The notes under the pieces are model-generated. The model worked only from the letters and a program-made list of their open reading frames with translations. It ran no database searches and was not told the origin of the DNA. The position numbers and the translations under genes are program-made. A DNA stretch of 64,000 nt from Sarcomyxa edulis (Eukaryota; Basidiomycota; Agaricomycetes; Agaricales; Mycenaceae), in contig QUOL01000009.1 in the NCBI GenBank assembly GCA_009761415.1, positions 248,001-312,000 of the forward strand, read 5' to 3'. How positions within the stretch are numbered: the first letter of the stretch is position 1; each line of letters opens with the position of its first letter. This document shows, piece by piece, positions 456 through 31,776 of this stretch.

Positions 456-739
456 TATTGAGGTAGACGTTGTAGGATCAAGCGAGTCTGTCGGCGTCGG
501 GTCACGCGTCACATCACACATAGCGGATCATTCCCCGTTCGTGTCCGAAACACCTCAGTGCTTTAATATCACTGAGGTGTAAGTCCCTACAGTTATTTTA
601 CTAGTTCCCTTATCTAACATACCATTAGTTCTCTTCATTATTCTTAGGTACATATATATCTACTACAGTGCTTTAATATCACTGAGGTTTCTCTTCATTA
701 TTCTTAGTCTCTTCGGAATCTCGCATTCTCAATTCCATA
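456..739 (+). repeat. 5' LTR of copia-1, with intron-bearing repeat block
   Basis: A 42-nt block appears twice. Copy A is 556-578 plus 629-647, interrupted by 579-628, a 50-nt segment starting GTAAGT, containing the branch-like CTAAC and ending ATTAG. Copy B (666-707) is the uninterrupted sequence. A perfect 11-bp stem (550-560 with 570-580) encloses copy A and pairs the GT of the segment's donor. A TATA-like stretch (catatatatc) lies between the copies at 651-660, so transcription may start near copy B; this start is inferred only. Confidence 0.9.
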
Positions 740-753
740 GGTTATGGGCCCTG
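740..753 (+). other. Primer-binding site of copia-1 (half-tRNA type)
   Basis: ggttatgggccctg begins right at the LTR edge. Its first 12 bases are complementary to the anticodon stem-loop of eukaryotic initiator tRNA-Met, not to a tRNA 3' end. Drosophila copia is known to prime this way from a cleaved 5' half tRNA. The first ATG of gag-pol (744) lies inside the site. Confidence 0.8.
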
Positions 754-3700
754 GTACCTACGACACTATGTCCACAGCATCCTCTTCTCTCAAACTAGTC
801 AACCTACCTAAACTCAAGGAGGACAGCTCCAATTGGATCACCTACAAGGAGCGGATCCTCAACACATTGACTTCGAAGAGTCTCGCTCGACACGTCACCG
901 GTAGCGCTCGGAAGGCCGTCGAGATCGAGGAACGCGATGACGGAAAGTGGTACGTTCCCAAGACCACTTCTCCTCTCGACGAAGCCCAGATCGAAGAGTA
1001 CGAAGAAAAATTGGATAAATGGAGACAGAAGGAGGCGTCGGTCCGCGAGGTCATCTACGAGACCGTTAGTCAGTCGATGTTCTTACTTATCAAGAACGAA
1101 CCGACCGCGGCCGCACTCTGGAAGAAACTTGTATCCATCAATGAAGGAAAAGGTGATATGATTCAGATGAATACACTCACCAAGATGCAGCAGATGCGCT
1201 GTCCGGAGGGAGGCAACATCCGAGTCCACATCTCTCGGATGACCGAACTCCATGAGGAGCTCGCCGGAATGGGTGCTCCACTTACCGACGTACAATTTTC
1301 CACCTACATTCGCGCTTCATTACCCCCATCCTACCACTCCTTACTCACCTCCATCAACGCCACCTCTCGAATCACCGGAAAAGCGATTTCGAGCAGCGCC
1401 CTGATCCAAGAGATCTACGAGGCAGCTGACGACGCTACCGTAACGAAATCGAACGTTGAACAGGAGGGAAACTCGGCCCTAGCCGCGTTTAAAGGGAAGG
1501 GAAAAGGAAAAGGTCGAGGGGGAGAGTCCAAGTCAAAAGGGGAGAAGTACTGTTCAGTCTGCAAGAAAAAGGGTTATCATACCAAGGAGGATTGTTGGGC
1601 TAAAGGAGGAGGAAAGGAGGGTCAGGCTCCGGAATGGTACTTGAAGAAGAAAGGGGAGGATACCTCCGCCAAAGCGAATATCGCGGTCGATGAACACGAC
1701 ATCGCCTTCTTCCTAGACCTCGGAGCTCAGGACGACGATCTCGATAACGTCGCTCTTGTCATTACCTCTGATTTCCAATCCGCCGCCCTCACCGCACCGA
1801 AAACGTCGAACGGCGTCATCCTCGATAGTGGTGCTAGTCGTCACTTTACTGGGGATAGATCGAGTATGGTGAACTTTGTCGAAATCCCGGGTTCACCAGT
1901 ACGCGCCGCCGACGGTCGCACCTTCAGCGCGACAGGTCGCGGAGACGTTCAAACCTATCTTCCTATGGGTGACGGAGTCAAACCAACTCCAGTTACTATC
2001 CGAAACGTCTATTACTCACCTCAAATGGCGTTCACCCTTGTTTCCGTCAGCCGAATGGACCGAGCGAAGTTCATTCTCCATATCGAGGATGGAATCTGTG
2101 AAATCAGAACTCCTAAACCAAATTCTCGAGTTATCGGAAGGATCCCCGAAAGCAGAGGACTTTACCGTATCAATTCTACACCTACTATTCCCGATCTCGT
2201 TTCCATCGCCAACGTCGCATCTAAGGTCATGTCCATATCAGAACTACACCGTAAAATGGGTCATGTAAACCACGACGACTTACGCAAAATGGTCACGGAC
2301 GGATTAGTGGAAGGCATCGAGTTGGATATCGACTCGGAGCCTGAGTTTTGCTCGTCCTGCATTCAGGCAAAAGCAACTCGTAAACCCTTTCCAAAGCAGA
2401 GTGAGCACAACCACTCTTACCAGGCTTATGGAGAGAAGATCGTTACCGATCTCTGGGGGGCTGCTCAAGTCACCTCGTTGGGTGGTCACAACTACTTCGT
2501 CTGTTACCTGGATCTCTGGAGTCACGAGGAGAAGGCGTATTTTCTCCGTCTTAAATCCGACGCGTTCGAGACCTACAAAAAGTACGAAGCCTGGGTAAAA
2601 GTCCAACGTAATTCAGTCATCAAGATCCTTGGTTCAGATCGAGGGGGAGAATTTACCTCAAAAGAATTCAACGACCATCTCGAGTACGCCGGAACGATTC
2701 GTCACCTAAACGTACACGACTCTTCGCAATCGAACGGAGCGTCCGAACGTGCGAATCGGACCCATCTAGAATGCGCCCGAGCGATGTTATTCGCCGCCGG
2801 TCTCCCGAAATATCTCTGGGCGGAAGCCATCGGCCACTCCATATGGATCCGGAATCGGGCTCCCACACGCGCGATACCCGAGGCGATGACTCCCCACGAG
2901 AAGGCGACTGGTGAGAAGCCCGATTTGACGAACCTACTTGAGTGGGGGACGTCAGTTTGGGTGAAACAGCTAGATGTAAAGAAACTCGAACCTCGAGCTG
3001 CAGAAGGTCGTTTTGTGGGTTATGATGTGGAGTCCAAGGGCTATAGGGTGTACTGGCCTAAAAAGCGTTCTGTTACAGTGGAAAGGGACATTTATTTCGA
3101 TAGGAATGAAGTCCTAGAGCCTGGGACCACTCAGGTTGAGGGGGGGAAGGACTCAGATCTTTTTGATCCTAACCCTAGCACCCCGCCTGTTCCTGTGGCT
3201 CCAGAACCCGAAGTACTCCCTAAACGCGAGCCAGAGGAGCTAAAAAACGATGAAAAGGACTCACATACCTTGCCAGATCATCAAAACTCCGAAATTCCCA
3301 ACACTGACAGCTCTCCTCCACCAGAACTTCCCCAAAACACCTCCAAACCCATTCCAACTCCCTCCATTCACTCAGAGGACTCAAACGTCGATGATAACGA
3401 TCCTAAACCTCGCCTAGGACGAGGCCAACGAGCCAGGAAACCAGTTGGATACTACAAGCAACTGGTGGATGGGAAAATTGATCCGAGGGTTGCAGAGATG
3501 GCCGAGATGATGGATTTTGCTGGGGAAGCGGATTTCGAGGCTGAGGGACTTGATGTAGAGGCCAGTGGGTGTCCAGGAAGTGCTGAGGACGAGTGGTTTG
3601 GAAAGGTAGTGGAATTCGCGCTGGTGGGAGAAGATGCAATGGAGCCGAGTAGTGTGATCGAAGCCTTGGAAGGCCCGAAGTCACATGAGTGGACCGACGC

Positions 3701-5228
3701 GATCGAGGCCGAACTTTCCCAAATCGAGAAAGTCAATACCTGGGAACTCGTCGACCTACCTCCAGGCGCCAACGTCATCAAATGCCGGTACGTTTTCCGT
3801 CATAAACGCGACGCTAACGGAAATATTTCGAAGTACAAAGCCAGACTCGTCGCCAAAGGATTTACACAAGTCCACGGCGTCGACTACCTCGAAACCTTCG
3901 CGCCGGTCGTAAAACTTCCCACTCTCCGTGCTCTCTTCGCTGTTGGGGCTAGTAAAGGCGCCGTGATACAACAAGCCGACGTCAAAAACGCCTATCTCAA
4001 CGCCATGCTCCGGGAACTTCTCTTCATGGAGCTACCACCAGAATATGAACGTTTCCGCCAACTCCCACTTATCAAGGTCAAAAATCGTCTCGTTTGCCGT
4101 CTATTTCGCGCCCTCTATGGAACGAAGCAAGGTGGGCACGAATGGTACCAGGATCTCAAGGGGAAATTTCTCCTCCTTGGCTACACTGTCTGCTCAGCCG
4201 ACGAAGCCGTTTTCTATAAATTCTCAGGTGACAAATACACCATCGTCGCCGCTGCCACTGACGACTTCACCATCATTGCCGAATCCGTCGAGTCTGCTGA
4301 ACTTATCAAGAGACAGCTAAACTCATTCTACGAGCTCGTCGATCTCGGAGATATCAACTGGCTACTCGGAATCAGCATAAAACGCAATCTCGAGGCCAAA
4401 ACCATTTCTCTCAGCCAAACCGCGTACATCGACCAAATCGTCAAACGGATGGGACTACAGGACGCAGCAACCGTCGTTACTCCACTTGAACCAGGAATCG
4501 ACCTTAGCTACGATTCACCTGCCCTATCTCCTCAAGTTCTCAGTCCGGTCGAAAAGTCAAAATATCGAGAAGCTATTGGCTCCCTCATGTACGTCGCTTT
4601 AGCAACTCGTCCTGACATCGCATTTCCAGTATCCATGCTCTCCAAATTCATGGAGAAGCCACATACCACCCATTGGAAGGCAGTCCAGCGTGTTTTCAAG
4701 TATCTGAAGGGTACTCGGAACTTCGTTCTCATCCTCGGAGGCGACCACATTGACCTCTATGGATATTCCGACGCAGATTGGGCATCCCAGATGGATCGTC
4801 ACTCCATTTCGGGTTTTGTCTTTTTCGTAGGGATTGGAGCAATCTCGTGGAGCGCTAAGAAGCAGCCCATCGTCACTCTCTCCAGTACCGAGTCCGAATA
4901 CGTCGCCCTCACACACGCTGCAAAGGACTTGATTTGGCTTCGTAAACTTTTACTTGAACTTTCTTTTCTTTCGAATGATTCTACTATTCTTTTCTCAGAT
5001 AATCAAGGAGCTATTCGTTTAACAAAGGATTCCACTTTCCATGCACGTACCAAACACATCGACATCCGTTTTCACTTCATTCGCGAAACCGTCGCATCCG
5101 GACAACTCACCATTCCTTACTGCCCCACGGACGAAATGATCGCAGACATTTTCACCAAACCCTTAGGACGTACCAAGCTTCACAAATTTCGTTCGCTTCT
5201 TGGTTTGGAACCCCGACAGTCTGCTTGA
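744..5228 (+). CDS. copia-1 Gag-Pol polyprotein
   Basis: One open frame of 1494 codons encodes all functions needed to copy and insert the element. Visible in order: a Gag-like helical region; a CCHC zinc knuckle near residue 270 (CSVCKKKGYHTKEDC); a basic GKGKGKGRGG run before it; an aspartic protease DSGASRH near 361; a pre-integrase zinc domain (HRKMGH near 502, CSSC near 535); an integrase core starting with VTDLWG near 569; reverse transcriptase from about 970, including YLNAMLRELLFMELP; and RNase H (SDADWA near 1342, ending near DNQGAIRLTK). The RT active-site motif reads ATDD in place of YVDD, keeping both aspartates. The Met at 768 is a more likely start than 744, which overlaps the primer site. 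There is no Gag-Pol frameshift, which is normal for copia elements. No defects seen. Confidence 0.95.
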   Translation: MGPGTYDTMSTASSSLKLVNLPKLKEDSSNWITYKERILNTLTSKSLARHVTGSARKAVEIEERDDGKWYVPKTTSPLDEAQIEEYEEKLDKWRQKEASVREVIYETVSQSMFLLIKNEPTAAALWKKLVSINEGKGDMIQMNTLTKMQQMRCPEGGNIRVHISRMTELHEELAGMGAPLTDVQFSTYIRASLPPSYHSLLTSINATSRITGKAISSSALIQEIYEAADDATVTKSNVEQEGNSALAAFKGKGKGKGRGGESKSKGEKYCSVCKKKGYHTKEDCWAKGGGKEGQAPEWYLKKKGEDTSAKANIAVDEHDIAFFLDLGAQDDDLDNVALVITSDFQSAALTAPKTSNGVILDSGASRHFTGDRSSMVNFVEIPGSPVRAADGRTFSATGRGDVQTYLPMGDGVKPTPVTIRNVYYSPQMAFTLVSVSRMDRAKFILHIEDGICEIRTPKPNSRVIGRIPESRGLYRINSTPTIPDLVSIANVASKVMSISELHRKMGHVNHDDLRKMVTDGLVEGIELDIDSEPEFCSSCIQAKATRKPFPKQSEHNHSYQAYGEKIVTDLWGAAQVTSLGGHNYFVCYLDLWSHEEKAYFLRLKSDAFETYKKYEAWVKVQRNSVIKILGSDRGGEFTSKEFNDHLEYAGTIRHLNVHDSSQSNGASERANRTHLECARAMLFAAGLPKYLWAEAIGHSIWIRNRAPTRAIPEAMTPHEKATGEKPDLTNLLEWGTSVWVKQLDVKKLEPRAAEGRFVGYDVESKGYRVYWPKKRSVTVERDIYFDRNEVLEPGTTQVEGGKDSDLFDPNPSTPPVPVAPEPEVLPKREPEELKNDEKDSHTLPDHQNSEIPNTDSSPPPELPQNTSKPIPTPSIHSEDSNVDDNDPKPRLGRGQRARKPVGYYKQLVDGKIDPRVAEMAEMMDFAGEADFEAEGLDVEASGCPGSAEDEWFGKVVEFALVGEDAMEPSSVIEALEGPKSHEWTDAIEAELSQIEKVNTWELVDLPPGANVIKCRYVFRHKRDANGNISKYKARLVAKGFTQVHGVDYLETFAPVVKLPTLRALFAVGASKGAVIQQADVKNAYLNAMLRELLFMELPPEYERFRQLPLIKVKNRLVCRLFRALYGTKQGGHEWYQDLKGKFLLLGYTVCSADEAVFYKFSGDKYTIVAAATDDFTIIAESVESAELIKRQLNSFYELVDLGDINWLLGISIKRNLEAKTISLSQTAYIDQIVKRMGLQDAATVVTPLEPGIDLSYDSPALSPQVLSPVEKSKYREAIGSLMYVALATRPDIAFPVSMLSKFMEKPHTTHWKAVQRVFKYLKGTRNFVLILGGDHIDLYGYSDADWASQMDRHSISGFVFFVGIGAISWSAKKQPIVTLSSTESEYVALTHAAKDLIWLRKLLLELSFLSNDSTILFSDNQGAIRLTKDSTFHARTKHIDIRFHFIRETVASGQLTIPYCPTDEMIADIFTKPLGRTKLHKFRSLLGLEPRQSA

Positions 5229-5235
5229 GGGGGAG
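5226..5235 (+). other. Polypurine tract of copia-1
   Basis: The purine run gagggggag lies directly upstream of the 3' LTR and overlaps the gag-pol stop. It is the expected plus-strand primer. copia-2 has a related gagtgggag in the same place. Confidence 0.75.
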
Positions 5236-5519
5236 TATTGAGGTAGACGTTGTAGGATCAAGCGAGTCTGTCGGCGTCGGGTCACGCGTCACATCACACA
5301 TAGCGGATCATTCCCCGTTCGTGTCCGAAACACCTCAGTGCTTTAATATCACTGAGGTGTAAGTCCCTACAGTTATTTTACTAGTTCCCTTATCTAACAT
5401 ACCATTAGTTCTCTTCATTATTCTTAGGTACATATATATCTACTACAGTGCTTTAATATCACTGAGGTTTCTCTTCATTATTCTTAGTCTCTTCGGAATC
5501 TCGCATTCTCAATTCCATA
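5236..5519 (+). repeat. 3' LTR of copia-1
   Basis: Identical to the 5' LTR over all 284 bases, including both block copies, the intron-like segment (5359-5408) and the hairpin. It is followed by the target duplication gtact. Confidence 0.95.
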
Positions 5520-5524
5520 GTACT

Positions 5525-10572: not shown

Positions 10573-10842
10573 TGATAAAATATGAGTATATTATCAGGTT
10601 TTACGGTCTCTCCTTTCATACGTACCTTGCGCTAGGCGCACCAGACTTTCGTTACTTTAGTTACTCACAGTCACGGTCACACCTCAGCGACGTTCTCTCA
10701 ACGTTCCGCTGAGGTGAGTACAGTAGAATCTCCGTATCTCTTACTATCTACTCACTATACCTATAGTTCATTCATTCTTATTAGGTATAGTCAATATAGC
10801 GACGTTCTCTCAACGTTCCGCTGAGTTCATTCATTCTTATTA
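10573..10842 (+). repeat. 5' LTR of copia-2, with intron-bearing repeat block
   Basis: Copy A is 10686-10713 plus 10767-10785. It is interrupted by 10714-10766, a 53-nt segment starting GTGAGT and ending CTATAG. Copy B (10798-10844) is the uninterrupted version, running to the LTR edge and sharing the first GG of the primer site. A 10-bp stem (10680-10689 with 10707-10716), with an inner 5-bp stem, encloses copy A and pairs the GT of the segment's donor. This is the same plan as copia-1 with different sequence. Confidence 0.9.
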
Positions 10843-10856
10843 GGTTATGGGCCCTG
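10843..10856 (+). other. Primer-binding site of copia-2 (half-tRNA type)
   Basis: ggttatgggccctg, identical to the copia-1 site over 14 bases. It is complementary to the initiator tRNA-Met anticodon stem-loop and starts exactly at the LTR edge. Confidence 0.8.
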
Positions 10857-18586: not shown

Positions 18587-21500
18587 CTAAGTTTGACGCC
18601 ATTTACGCCGACCTATGGTGTCTTCCATGTCTTCCGGATTGTCGAGAGGCCTTTTACCGTTCGTATTCGTGGACAAAGTTGGCGAGTCGAGCATATTCGT
18701 CATGACCCAGGAAACATCGACTAGCGCTGCATTCCACGACGCGTCATCCTTGCCAGCCGCGAATCCCCACCATCCCAAGGCCATCATGACCACTACGAAG
18801 CCATTCGTGCCAGGTTTGTTGAGGACATCCCAGGCTGTACCGCTCACCCGAGTCTCTGCGACAATCTCCCCTTCTCCATTCAACACTCCCCGCCATTCAG
18901 GTTGGATACGTCTCCACCAACTCCACCATTCCCTCCCCAGTCGATGCGCCTCCATCATGTTACTGATTTCTGGTTCCTTCTTCCGCCCTCGCTTCAGCCA
19001 CCAATGAACCTCGGCCGGCCGTCCCTTGGGAGGGAATCCCTCTTTTTCAAAGATACCCGCAGCAGCAGCTTGTATCTCGATGCGAGCCATCAGATTGACA
19101 GCGTCTAGCCATTTGGGACCTAGGTCTTTCTCAGTGAGTCGAGGATAAACAAGTTTTACCCAGTCCGGCATTGTTGAAAGGTCAAGAGGAGTAAGAGTAG
19201 GTCGGGTAAGTTCTGTCAACGAAGCACCAGTTGCGTTTACATCGTTAGATCCGAGGCCGTTCGACGATTGACGCTCGGAGGGGTTGGGAAGGGATGTAGT
19301 GCTGTTCGACGATGTTGTAGTAGCGCCGTTTGACGATTGACGCTTGGAGGGGTTGGGAAGGGATGTAGTGCCGTTCAACGATGGAGGCTCGGAGGGGTTG
19401 GGAAGGGATGTAGTGCCGTTCGACGATGGAAGGTCTGAGGATGTAGTGCCGTTCGACGATGGAAGGTCTGAGGGATTGGGAAGGGGTGTAGAATTTGAGT
19501 TGGTAATGGTCGCGGCGTCATTCGACGTGGGGTTAGAGTCGGGGACTTGAGGTGTAGCCGATCCAGCTCCAGAGGTCTGCACGGCGATGCGAAACGGAAT
19601 GCCCTGGCGATCCATATAAGCCATAGCGCCCTCAATAGAGCACGACCTTCGAGGAGCTGGTCTGATATAAGAGAGAGGGCCCGGGCTCCCAGGTGGTGTC
19701 ACCGGCTCGAGGTATCTAGCTCCTACACGTCGAGGCCTCGGTCTAGTTGGCTGCGACTTCCTCTTTTCGGCCCTCTCCTCTTCACGTTTCCTTTTCCTGC
19801 TCTCGCGTTCTTTTTCTTTCTCGTCACGCCTTGCATCTCTCGCCTCACGTTCCAGCCTTTTTTCCTCCATTTTGGCCTCTCGCTCTTCGCGCCCTTCCTC
19901 TCTCTCTTTATCGTATTCTTCCCGCAGGACTAATCTATATTTTGGAAGGCGTGGGCCGATCTTGCGAGGCGCAAAGGGTAATGGTGTAGACGGTATCGGC
20001 GTCTTCTCGCGGATGTGGTAGTATTTGGAGCCGAACGGTTTGCGGAATGGTGAGGGAGAGTCTTCTGATAGGGAGTCCTCTGAGGAAGAGTCTGAGGAGG
20101 ACGACGAGATGTCGTGGCTAGACGAGTCCTGCACATATGTACTCATTGGCTTTGGTCTAGCCTTAGCCTTTGCCTTGGGAGCGCTCGCTGCCTTGGGAAC
20201 ATTTGTTGCCTTGCTTTTCTTCTTCCCTTTTGACTTTGTTGCTCTAGGTGGAGTCGACGGGCCTGCGCCCTCCGTTTGGGAAGAGATTGTGTCCTCTTCA
20301 GGCCCAGCAATTGGTTCGACCGGAGGAGCGCTCGATGCAGTAGGGATTCCAGGCATACCAGGTTGGATGGTGGGAGCGTCTGTTCGAAATAATGATTTTT
20401 AGTCTCGGCGAATTTTTTTCGACGGTCAAACTCACCATAACAGGTCATCAGGTACTCCAAGAACGCATCCGATACCTTCTTGAATTTGGCAGGATTCGAC
20501 TTTTTCCAGTTCTTTGGAACTGGATCCCTGTTTGTCCCGACATGTAAGCTACAGCGATATGATGTGAGTATACAGGACTCAGATGGGGTAGAGTGATTTG
20601 CACATACTTCACCGAGTTTATTTGGCCTCCCTCTGACACCTCTGGGCCTCCGACAAACAGCGACACGTGCATGTTGAGGACACGAGAGATTCCCATCAAG
20701 AATGGTGCAGCGACTGTACCGAGGCATCGAAGGGCTCTGGAAAGAAACGGTCAAAGTCAGCGGTCATTGACAGGCGACAACATCTGAGGGACTTGGGACT
20801 TACTCTGATTGACGTTCCGGAACATAGGCAGTATTCAACGAGTCAGCGACCCATTTGGCATGCGCCGCTTCATTGTCCGCCTCATATTCTATCCGATGCT
20901 CGTCTTTCTCCTCCTGGGACAGGTTTTGATAGTGTTCGCGGGTGACGGCTGCTCGAAAAGCCATACGGTCCTTCATTGGTTTCCCCGATGCCTCCCATCG
21001 CCGTTCAAAATCGTCCTTCACGACACTAGAGAACATCTTCTTGGACCAGTGCTGCTCTATCTGGAGAGGCTTCGGTGGTTTCCGACTGACGCCAGAGAGC
21101 TCGGCGAGTAGAGAGGCGAATGGATTAGCTTCACCTTTGGAAGGCATGATAGGATTCAATTTTTTGGCGCGGTGGTCGAACCAGCTCCCGATGGACTGGA
21201 ACATAGTGAGTAAGGAAAAACCGTATACGTGGCTATTACATACCTTCTGCATAGAACGAACAACCTCCTTCTTCTGAGCCTCCTCCTCGGGTGTGAGAGT
21301 TTCATGGACGACCGGAGCATTAGCGTCATAATCGATCATGACAGCGGGTTCCTCATCCAAAGATAGTCTCCACGAATATCGAACGAAATATTCATTGACC
21401 ACAGACGCAAGAAAATCCTTCACTTTTACATGACTTTGCAGCCTCGCAGCTTGATATCCAGGCAGATGACGAGTCAAGAATTCTTTGCGAGAGTTTTTGG

Positions 21501-31506: not shown

Positions 31507-31776
31507 TGATAAAATATGAGTATATTATCAGGTTTTACGGTCTCTCCTTTCATACGTACCTTGCGCTAGGCGCACCAGACTTTCGTTACTTTAGTTACTC
31601 ACAGTCACGGTCACACCTCAGCGACGTTCTCTCAACGTTCCGCTGAGGTGAGTACAGTAGAATCTCCGTATCTCTTACTATCTACTCACTATACCTATAG
31701 TTCATTCATTCTTATTAGGTATAGTCAATATAGCGACGTTCTCTCAACGTTCCGCTGAGTTCATTCATTCTTATTA
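31507..31776 (+). repeat. 3' LTR of copia-2
   Basis: Identical to the 5' LTR over 270 bases, with both block copies and the 53-nt intron-like segment (31648-31700). Preceded by gagtgggag and followed by the target duplication caatt. Confidence 0.94.

Follow-up and report, generated by a model that had tools for sequence, protein, structure and literature searches.

The window, the whole 64,000-nucleotide stretch of the Sarcomyxa edulis genome that was analysed, holds near its start an LTR retrotransposon of the copia type, copia-1. One block of sequence is present twice in each of its LTRs: copy A is interrupted by an intron-like segment, and copy B carries the two flanking parts, E1 and E2, joined. 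The parts of the element are as follows, in window coordinates (a slash within a sequence marks a predicted boundary).

456-5519, + strand: whole copia-1 element, with identical 284-bp LTRs and the TSD GTACT on both sides
456-739, + strand: 5' LTR, 284 bp, identical to 5236-5519, with the TSD GTACT at 451-455
550-580, + strand: predicted hairpin of ACACCTCAGTG (550-560) with CACTGAGGTGT (570-580), from the sequence, the MFE fold of 3'-LTR-type RNA and arms that co-vary across families
557-578, + strand: E1 of copy A, with the predicted transcription start at A557, the first base common to A and B across families
579-628, + strand: predicted intron 1, 50 nt, GTAAGT..CTAAC..ATTAG, missing from copy B and with a counterpart in 13 families
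629-647, + strand: E2 of copy A, pyrimidine-rich with a TTAG end, from the A/B comparison
648-666, + strand: spacer S, AT-rich, with GT at its start as predicted intron-2 5' splice site; predicted poly(A)-signal region
648-707, + strand: predicted intron 2, 60 nt, GTACAT..CTTAG, made up of S and copy B; homology stops at AG in B and at AG/GT in A
667-707, + strand: copy B, E1 and E2 joined; predicted 3' R and acceptor of strong-stop cDNA
708-739, + strand: U5, 32 nt, between copy B and the LTR end
740-751, + strand: primer-binding site (PBS), GGTTATGGGCCC
744-5228, + strand: gag-pol ORF, 1494 aa, copia type
5236-5519, + strand: 3' LTR, identical to the 5' LTR, with the TSD again at 5520-5524
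5337-5358, + strand: E1 in the 3' LTR, by identity with the 5' LTR
5359-5408, + strand: predicted intron 1 in the 3' LTR, by the same identity
5409-5427, + strand: E2 in the 3' LTR, likewise
5428-5446, + strand: S in the 3' LTR, likewise
5447-5487, + strand: copy B in the 3' LTR, likewise
5488-5519, + strand: U5 in the 3' LTR, likewise

Membership in Ty1/copia is indicated by the order of Pfam matches in the ORF (Retrotran_gag_2, Pol_BBD, gag_pre-integrs, RVT_2), with the pre-integrase region before RVT_2, and by matching LTRs, TSD, PBS and PPT, all of which are present. No integrase-core domain was among the Pfam matches listed for the piece 1803-2939, and 2940-3635 lay outside that scan. The PBS is presumably complementary to the anticodon arm of the initiator tRNA; a search for tRNA genes as a source of the primer found none in the window or in five further stretches (L018, L019, L024, L025, L032). 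The ATG of the ORF (744) lies inside the PBS, and a further in-frame ATG is found at 768. A textbook Ty1/copia LTR reads U3-R-U5. While copia-1 resembles such elements in its domain set, single gag-pol ORF, PBS adjoining the LTR, PPT and 5-bp TSD, it departs from the classical single-R LTR in having R in two copies around S, one of them with an intron-like interruption.

The sequence-only reading had claimed that A becomes B once 579-628 is removed, that the segment begins GTAAGT and ends ATTAG, and that its excision is exact to the base. All of this was borne out: 556-578 plus 629-647 are identical to 666-707 (42/42 nt), the edges are GT..AG, and only shift 0 fits among the 11 registers tested (-5 to +5). 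One detail needed correction, as CTAAC (614-618) stands 10 nt before the segment end and not 11. The match at the first C of copy B (666) may be fortuitous, and the start of A and B was taken as A557/A667 because homology in the F2 and L006 LTRs begins at the next A. Since the two LTRs of copia-1 are identical, the split-block structure is present twice in the element, and the block with its joined copy is real. An exact search of both strands of the 64-kb window for the same architecture (at least 10 + at least 10 nt) turned up two copia elements, with four LTRs between them, and a tandem array, and nothing else. The array, at about 19.2-19.5 kb (~19200-19500), is a repeat array that imitates the A/B architecture in the automatic search. 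The second element, copia-2 (family F3), is laid out as follows.

10573-10842, + strand: copia-2 5' LTR, same architecture as the copia-1 LTR
10686-10713, + strand: E1
10714-10766, + strand: predicted intron 1
10767-10784, + strand: E2
10785-10797, + strand: S
10798-10843, + strand: copy B, sharing its final G with the start of the PBS and leaving no U5
31507-31776, + strand: copia-2 3' LTR, identical to 10573-10842, with the TSD CAATT

The 270-bp identical LTRs of copia-2 (10573-31776) are ~20.7 kb apart, so other insertions probably lie inside it.

We searched one genome (35.6 Mb, 40 contigs), and all evidence comes from it. The copia-1 LTR has 12 matches there, and the two-intron architecture was found in 13 copia LTR families (F1-F5 and F7-F14, F13 in two forms), which were compared with one LTR per family. 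One F1 LTR, on contig C40 (L007, L008), is split by a ~3 kb insertion. In 11 tabulated families the edges of the excised segment are GT..AG ten times and GC..AG once. The rough probability of this by chance, with uniform bases and register ambiguity counted, is 10^-21.8, a figure good only to an order of magnitude because the parser gave GT/GC-AG a small tie-break bonus among equal registers. Across 14 forms intron 1 is 50-63 nt long, with GT-AG edges in 13 and GC-AG in F12. In copia-1 both 579-628 and 648-707 look like introns of the host, having GT-AG edges, CTAAC in the first, and a host-like length; candidate introns of the actin gene in the same genome, chosen by in-frame stops only, measure 54 (or 45) and 57 nt.

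The two copies change together. Over the 13 families, joined A differs from its own B at 6 of 561 nt (95-100% identity within a family), whereas A/B identity between families averages 58% and reaches at most 78% (156 comparisons). E2 length changes between families were made in both copies. The same holds within families: four E1/E2 variants of F1 lie 1-9 positions apart, equally in A and B, with no A/B difference inside any LTR; the two variants of F4 differ once, in both A and B; and among the copia-1 LTR matches E2 reads TTCTCTTCATTATTCTTAG, TTATCTTTCCTTTATTCTTAG, TTTCTTTCCTTTATTCTTAG or TTCTTCTCTTATTTCTTAG, with A equal to B each time. In L006, an old solo F1 LTR, A and B still match and intron 1 now ends in GG. 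As far as the aligned families go, a single origin in an ancestor, with separate drift of the copies afterwards, does not produce this pattern; the alignments indicate that one copy is repeatedly rewritten from the other, with E1 joined to E2 while A stays interrupted. Reverse transcription of spliced RNA would give such rewriting, and it is highly probable, judging from these comparisons, that copy B is rewritten from spliced A.

The proposal that B is a reverse-transcribed copy of spliced A, with the LTR shaped, or even regenerated, by splicing and strand transfer, was thus supported through A/B co-variation, which that reading had predicted and which holds in 13 families, paired E2 length changes included; the splicing itself is predicted. 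The outcomes that it had set against itself, loss of the 50-nt segment from both copies with non-GT-AG edges or independent drift of A and B, did not appear in the families compared, the exceptions at the edges being GC-AG in F12 and GT..GG in L006. Beyond that account are the further intron predicted at 648-707, a predicted hairpin that pairs U3 with the donor, and a wide occurrence in this genome that includes a Ty3/gypsy family.

These comparisons also bear on a more conventional explanation, that the LTR is ordinary with an R of 557-707, that splicing is a rare accident which formed B once in an ancestor, and that A and B have since been kept alike by recombination or template switching. 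An unspliced R of this extent would replicate by the textbook route as well, and the direct repeats of family F6 (below) may recombine or mis-transfer, single-R forms making up 5/21 F6 LTRs. Conversion between A and B should, however, lead to gain or loss of intron 1, whereas in 13 families A has it and B does not; both E1 and E2 remain alike in the two copies despite the gap of 50-63 nt that separates them in A; and the end of homology at AG/GT is left unexplained. We regard this explanation as unlikely.

Rewriting of B from spliced A involves the second predicted intron. Copy A is followed by GT, and copy B ends in AG; where B reaches as far as the LTR end, the AG is completed by the first G of the PBS. 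In F3 and F5 this AG shares its G with the start of the PBS, which leaves these LTRs without a U5; the LTR copies read from F13 and F14 end in ACA, and there too the PBS would supply the G. Predicted intron 2 (648-707) holds copy B, and A could not rewrite B unless this intron were removed. The intron-2 5' splice sites are weak (GTACAT, GTATAC, GTGAAT and others).

Two further families have the duplication with a single intron-like segment, the second. In F6 (copia) the duplicate lacks intron 1 and reads ATCTTTGACAGTGAAGCTCGACTCCAG/GTACGT.../same block/TGCTCTC. In G1, a Ty3/gypsy family by its PF17921 matches, it reads TCTTTGGATTCCCCTCTGTTGTTGTGCAG/GTATGC.../same 29 nt/ATTGCTG with a predicted intron of 80 nt; A and the intron start were found in five loci (L085-L089), and B in both loci that were fetched (L092, L093). 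Because F6 and G1 have this second intron only, the common core of split-R LTRs would be A-donor-S-B-acceptor-U5, and intron 1 looks, from the families compared, like an addition of the copia families. The converse proposal, in which only intron 1 is real, 648-707 stays unspliced and B is a tandem duplicate maintained by slippage, gains from the stronger 5' splice sites of intron 1 but does not account for F6 and G1. Splicing of intron 1 alone would also yield the strong-stop cDNA E1E2-S-E1E2 and hence three-unit LTRs or LTRs without intron 1. In the families whose E2 starts with TTC, CCTCAG..CTGAG joined directly to TTC occurs at 3 places, fewer than the 9 of the reversed control and none with a known-family loop, and the same search gave no single-R form of these two-intron families. 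We consider this proposal very improbable.

Among 21 F6 LTRs examined, five are single-R (L023, L028, L036, L060, L071), 15 have two copies and one is unclassed. We dropped the single-R LTRs as proof of exact intron-2 loss, because they could equally have arisen by recombination of direct repeats A and B. In L015 and L058, which have the TSD GGCAA in common, B but not A ends with an 11-nt duplication, CTCGACTCCAG; they are an F6 5' LTR and 3' LTR, now in inverted elements on contig C2, as would follow from an inversion between the two. An upstream AG, if used, would fit this duplication, but it was set aside as an explanation, slippage having the same product. On contig C17 (L027/L028/L056), a one-R F6 5' LTR and a two-R 3' LTR resemble one element; the 3' flank, GTGGC, matches the L027 flank instead, and the three loci seem rearranged.

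Several searches show how widely the duplication occurs. A PBS search found 29 places: ten two-intron LTRs (L017 with one A/B mismatch), nine two-R and three one-R F6 LTRs (the latter L023, L028, L036), two of a single-R family (L018, L029), one cut on its 5' side (L041) and four without a recognised LTR (L019, L024, L025, L032). A search with the RT region gave 41 matches, 30 of them with loci; in the 1500 nt read downstream the duplication was found in sense at 21 and in antisense at one (L067), and was not seen at eight (L046, L048, L050, L060, L062, L066, L070, L071). A census of CCTCAG-N(12-30)-CTGAGGTNNG had 45 matches, at 29 places, where the reversed control had 3, the pattern being a palindrome that was counted on both strands at 16 places. 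Of 11 stretches fetched from the census, seven show the architecture (L075, L076 and L077 are new; L079-L082 are 5' LTRs of known families), and four did not pass the architecture parser (L072, L073, L074, L078).

The duplication is not universal in this genome. The copia family of L018, L029 and L048 is without it, and it was looked for and absent in a Ty3/gypsy control, L091 (the L094 and L095 stretches missed the LTRs). On an RT tree of 22 rows with midpoint root, the single-R copia L048/L070 groups with F10 (93/90, not starred, on a long branch) among split-R families, which weakly suggests that the split-R form is old and was then lost in the L048/L070 family. Our search of viral contigs for related loci found nothing; in a pattern scan of 90 viral-contig stretches an exact second E1 within 250 nt occurred in 0/90, and the same check on loci of the fungal genome, partly redundant, found it at 13/16 matches.

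The predicted start at A557 places the first splice donor 22 nt downstream. A TATA-type sequence lies at -33 to -31 in five of 15 LTR forms (F7, F11, F12, F13, F13b), and no TATA-type match was present in the other ten, copia-1 among them. The spacer S has AATA(AA/TA/CA/TT) in 11 of 16 forms, against 1.4 in shuffles (0/2000; the motif was chosen after looking), and five forms, copia-1 again among them, are without an AATA-type signal in S. A start at copy B (ATATATAT, 652-659) was rejected as main model: it would leave A away from the RNA 5' end, so that A could not yield spliced strong-stop cDNA.

Upstream of the predicted start, the two-intron LTRs read CCTC/AG, mostly with A or CA before it (CTTC in L005 of F1), and E1 ends in CTGAG with the GT directly next or two bases further on. 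In copia-1, the part of the predicted hairpin at 550-556 lies upstream of the start, and the right arm covers the intron-1 5' splice site. Since the left arm is upstream of the start, it would be present only in the 3' LTR transcript. In MFE folds of 3'-type RNA the four bases before the start are paired in 13 of 14 rows. Beyond CCTC/GAGG, the arms suit the 5' splice site of their own family better than those of others: over all families the U3 arms form 34 contiguous pairs with the intron side of that site, against a permuted mean of 16.4 (P 5e-5, 20,000 permutations), and in a 12-family set 28 against 13.4 (0/20,000 permutations). With 13 rows, the covariation score is 0.213 (0/500 shuffles), and 78.6% of hairpin cells are paired (reached by 1/500 shuffles) against 28-38% in slid versions. 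Two of five covariation measures were no better than shuffles (double-change pairs, 135/500; pair types, 386/500), and six of 14 pairs are invariant. These statistics include related rows (F7/F11, F13/F13b), and the shuffles do not correct for kinship.

Individual families show arm and donor fitting each other: GACATACCTC against GAG/GTATGTC in F10, CTAACCTC against GAG/GTTAG in F13, and TGCCTC against GAG/GCA in F12, where the arm matches the GC donor. The F4 and F9 arms extend no further than CCTC/GAGG. F6 and G1 have different arm sequences that again reach the donor. In G1 (L085-L089, L092, L093) a long upstream arm pairs with the R block and donor in the predicted fold; the 119-nt stretch with the arm folds at -39.4 kcal/mol and a shorter one without it at -6.7, values that are not directly comparable. 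Calculated donor accessibility is lower in 3'-type RNA in 12 of 14 rows (in F5 by only 0.01) and higher in F1b and F4; it is better than with shuffled upstream sequence (at most 2/100) only in four of 14 rows (F6, F7, F10, F12). Because this direct calculation is weaker than the co-variation of the arms, we only lean towards a U3-dependent hairpin switch, as modelled here.

The same arms could be read as DNA. CCTCAG..CTGAGG might be a host-factor site or promoter element that was duplicated for regulation, with the intron-like edges secondary; the palindrome is near-perfect, and co-varying arms would also be seen in a palindromic DNA site. This reading leaves E2, the GT-AG edges and the exact joined product unexplained, the left arm is absent from copy B, and the arms of F6 and G1 differ in sequence yet again meet the 5' splice site. 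We give it a very small probability.

Taken together, it is probable that copia-1 has an LTR with a split R, in which the transcript would begin at A557 and lose two introns (579-628 and 648-707) from its 5' end by splicing, and B would be rewritten from A. Splicing, transcription start and poly(A) site we infer from the sequence. Under this model the genomic RNA would read cap-E1-E2-U5-PBS...U3-E1-intron 1-E2-S-B-poly(A). With both introns gone from its 5' end, the strong-stop cDNA would be E1E2U5, and B, the 3' R, is the only place in the 3' LTR that its uninterrupted E1E2 matches in full. The cDNA would pair with B and extend through S, E2, intron 1 and E1 into U3, and this extension on an unspliced 3' LTR would restore the full LTR with a new B made from A. 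The difference between the two ends could come from the hairpin. RNA at the 3' end would include the U3 arm (550-556), and the full hairpin would mask the first 5' splice site, so that both introns would be retained, along with the poly(A) signal of S; the transcript at the 5' end would start after the U3 arm, leaving that splice site open. Occasional use of spliced RNA would suffice for the concerted change. Transfer to A instead of B would produce a single-R LTR, the form found in 5/21 F6 LTRs, which recombination explains equally well.

In foamy viruses (Spumaretrovirinae), R is a single block and the acceptors lie outside the LTR. copia-1 differs in that donor and acceptor are both predicted inside the LTR, R occurs twice, and splicing would renew the 3' copy; nor is it a foamy virus, having a single copia-type gag-pol ORF and not the spumavirus gene set (gag, pol, env). 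According to one report on foamy viruses, R contains a splice donor that precedes the poly(A) signal, U1 suppresses polyadenylation at the 5' end, and upstream nucleotides of U3, which RNA contains only at the 3' LTR, alter the donor structure and presumably block U1 binding (PMC3694450). A donor in R and a U3-dependent structure at the 3' LTR are what copia-1 would share, both being no more than predictions in copia-1. By this analogy the copia-1 LTR would work in part like a foamy-virus LTR, yet it belongs to a copia element and is a different LTR. Introns in LTR retrotransposons are described for Ogre and EVADE, where the available part of the source has them used for subgenomic RNAs (PMC12786077). 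copia-1 is like these in its predicted spliceosomal introns but, as far as that source goes, unlike them in that its introns would lie inside the LTR and the spliced RNA would be a replication template. A further candidate parallel, PMC5542766, was discarded as a false match, its accessible part concerning lentiviral vectors. An LTR with R renewed by splicing was not found in open PMC full text, where subscription journals are mostly outside coverage; such renewal would be an unusual way of making LTR ends.

More broadly, we find it fairly likely that some LTR retrotransposons, both copia and gypsy in this genome, form a class that makes its terminal redundancy by splicing: the 5' R would come from an interrupted exon pair, the 3' R would be the processed version of that pair, lying within the following intron, and the transcription start would set a hairpin switch that chooses which LTR is spliced. 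Identical LTR DNA must act as promoter at one end and as terminator at the other, and the suggested solution is a poly(A) signal and second R hidden in an intron lost from the 5' end alone. If this is true, the spliceosome would be a regular participant in the strand-transfer cycle, and the LTRs would preserve in genomic DNA a record of the RNA spliced from them. Splicing would then contribute to the upkeep of LTR structure, and its products could be recognised in genome sequence, with no need for RNA.
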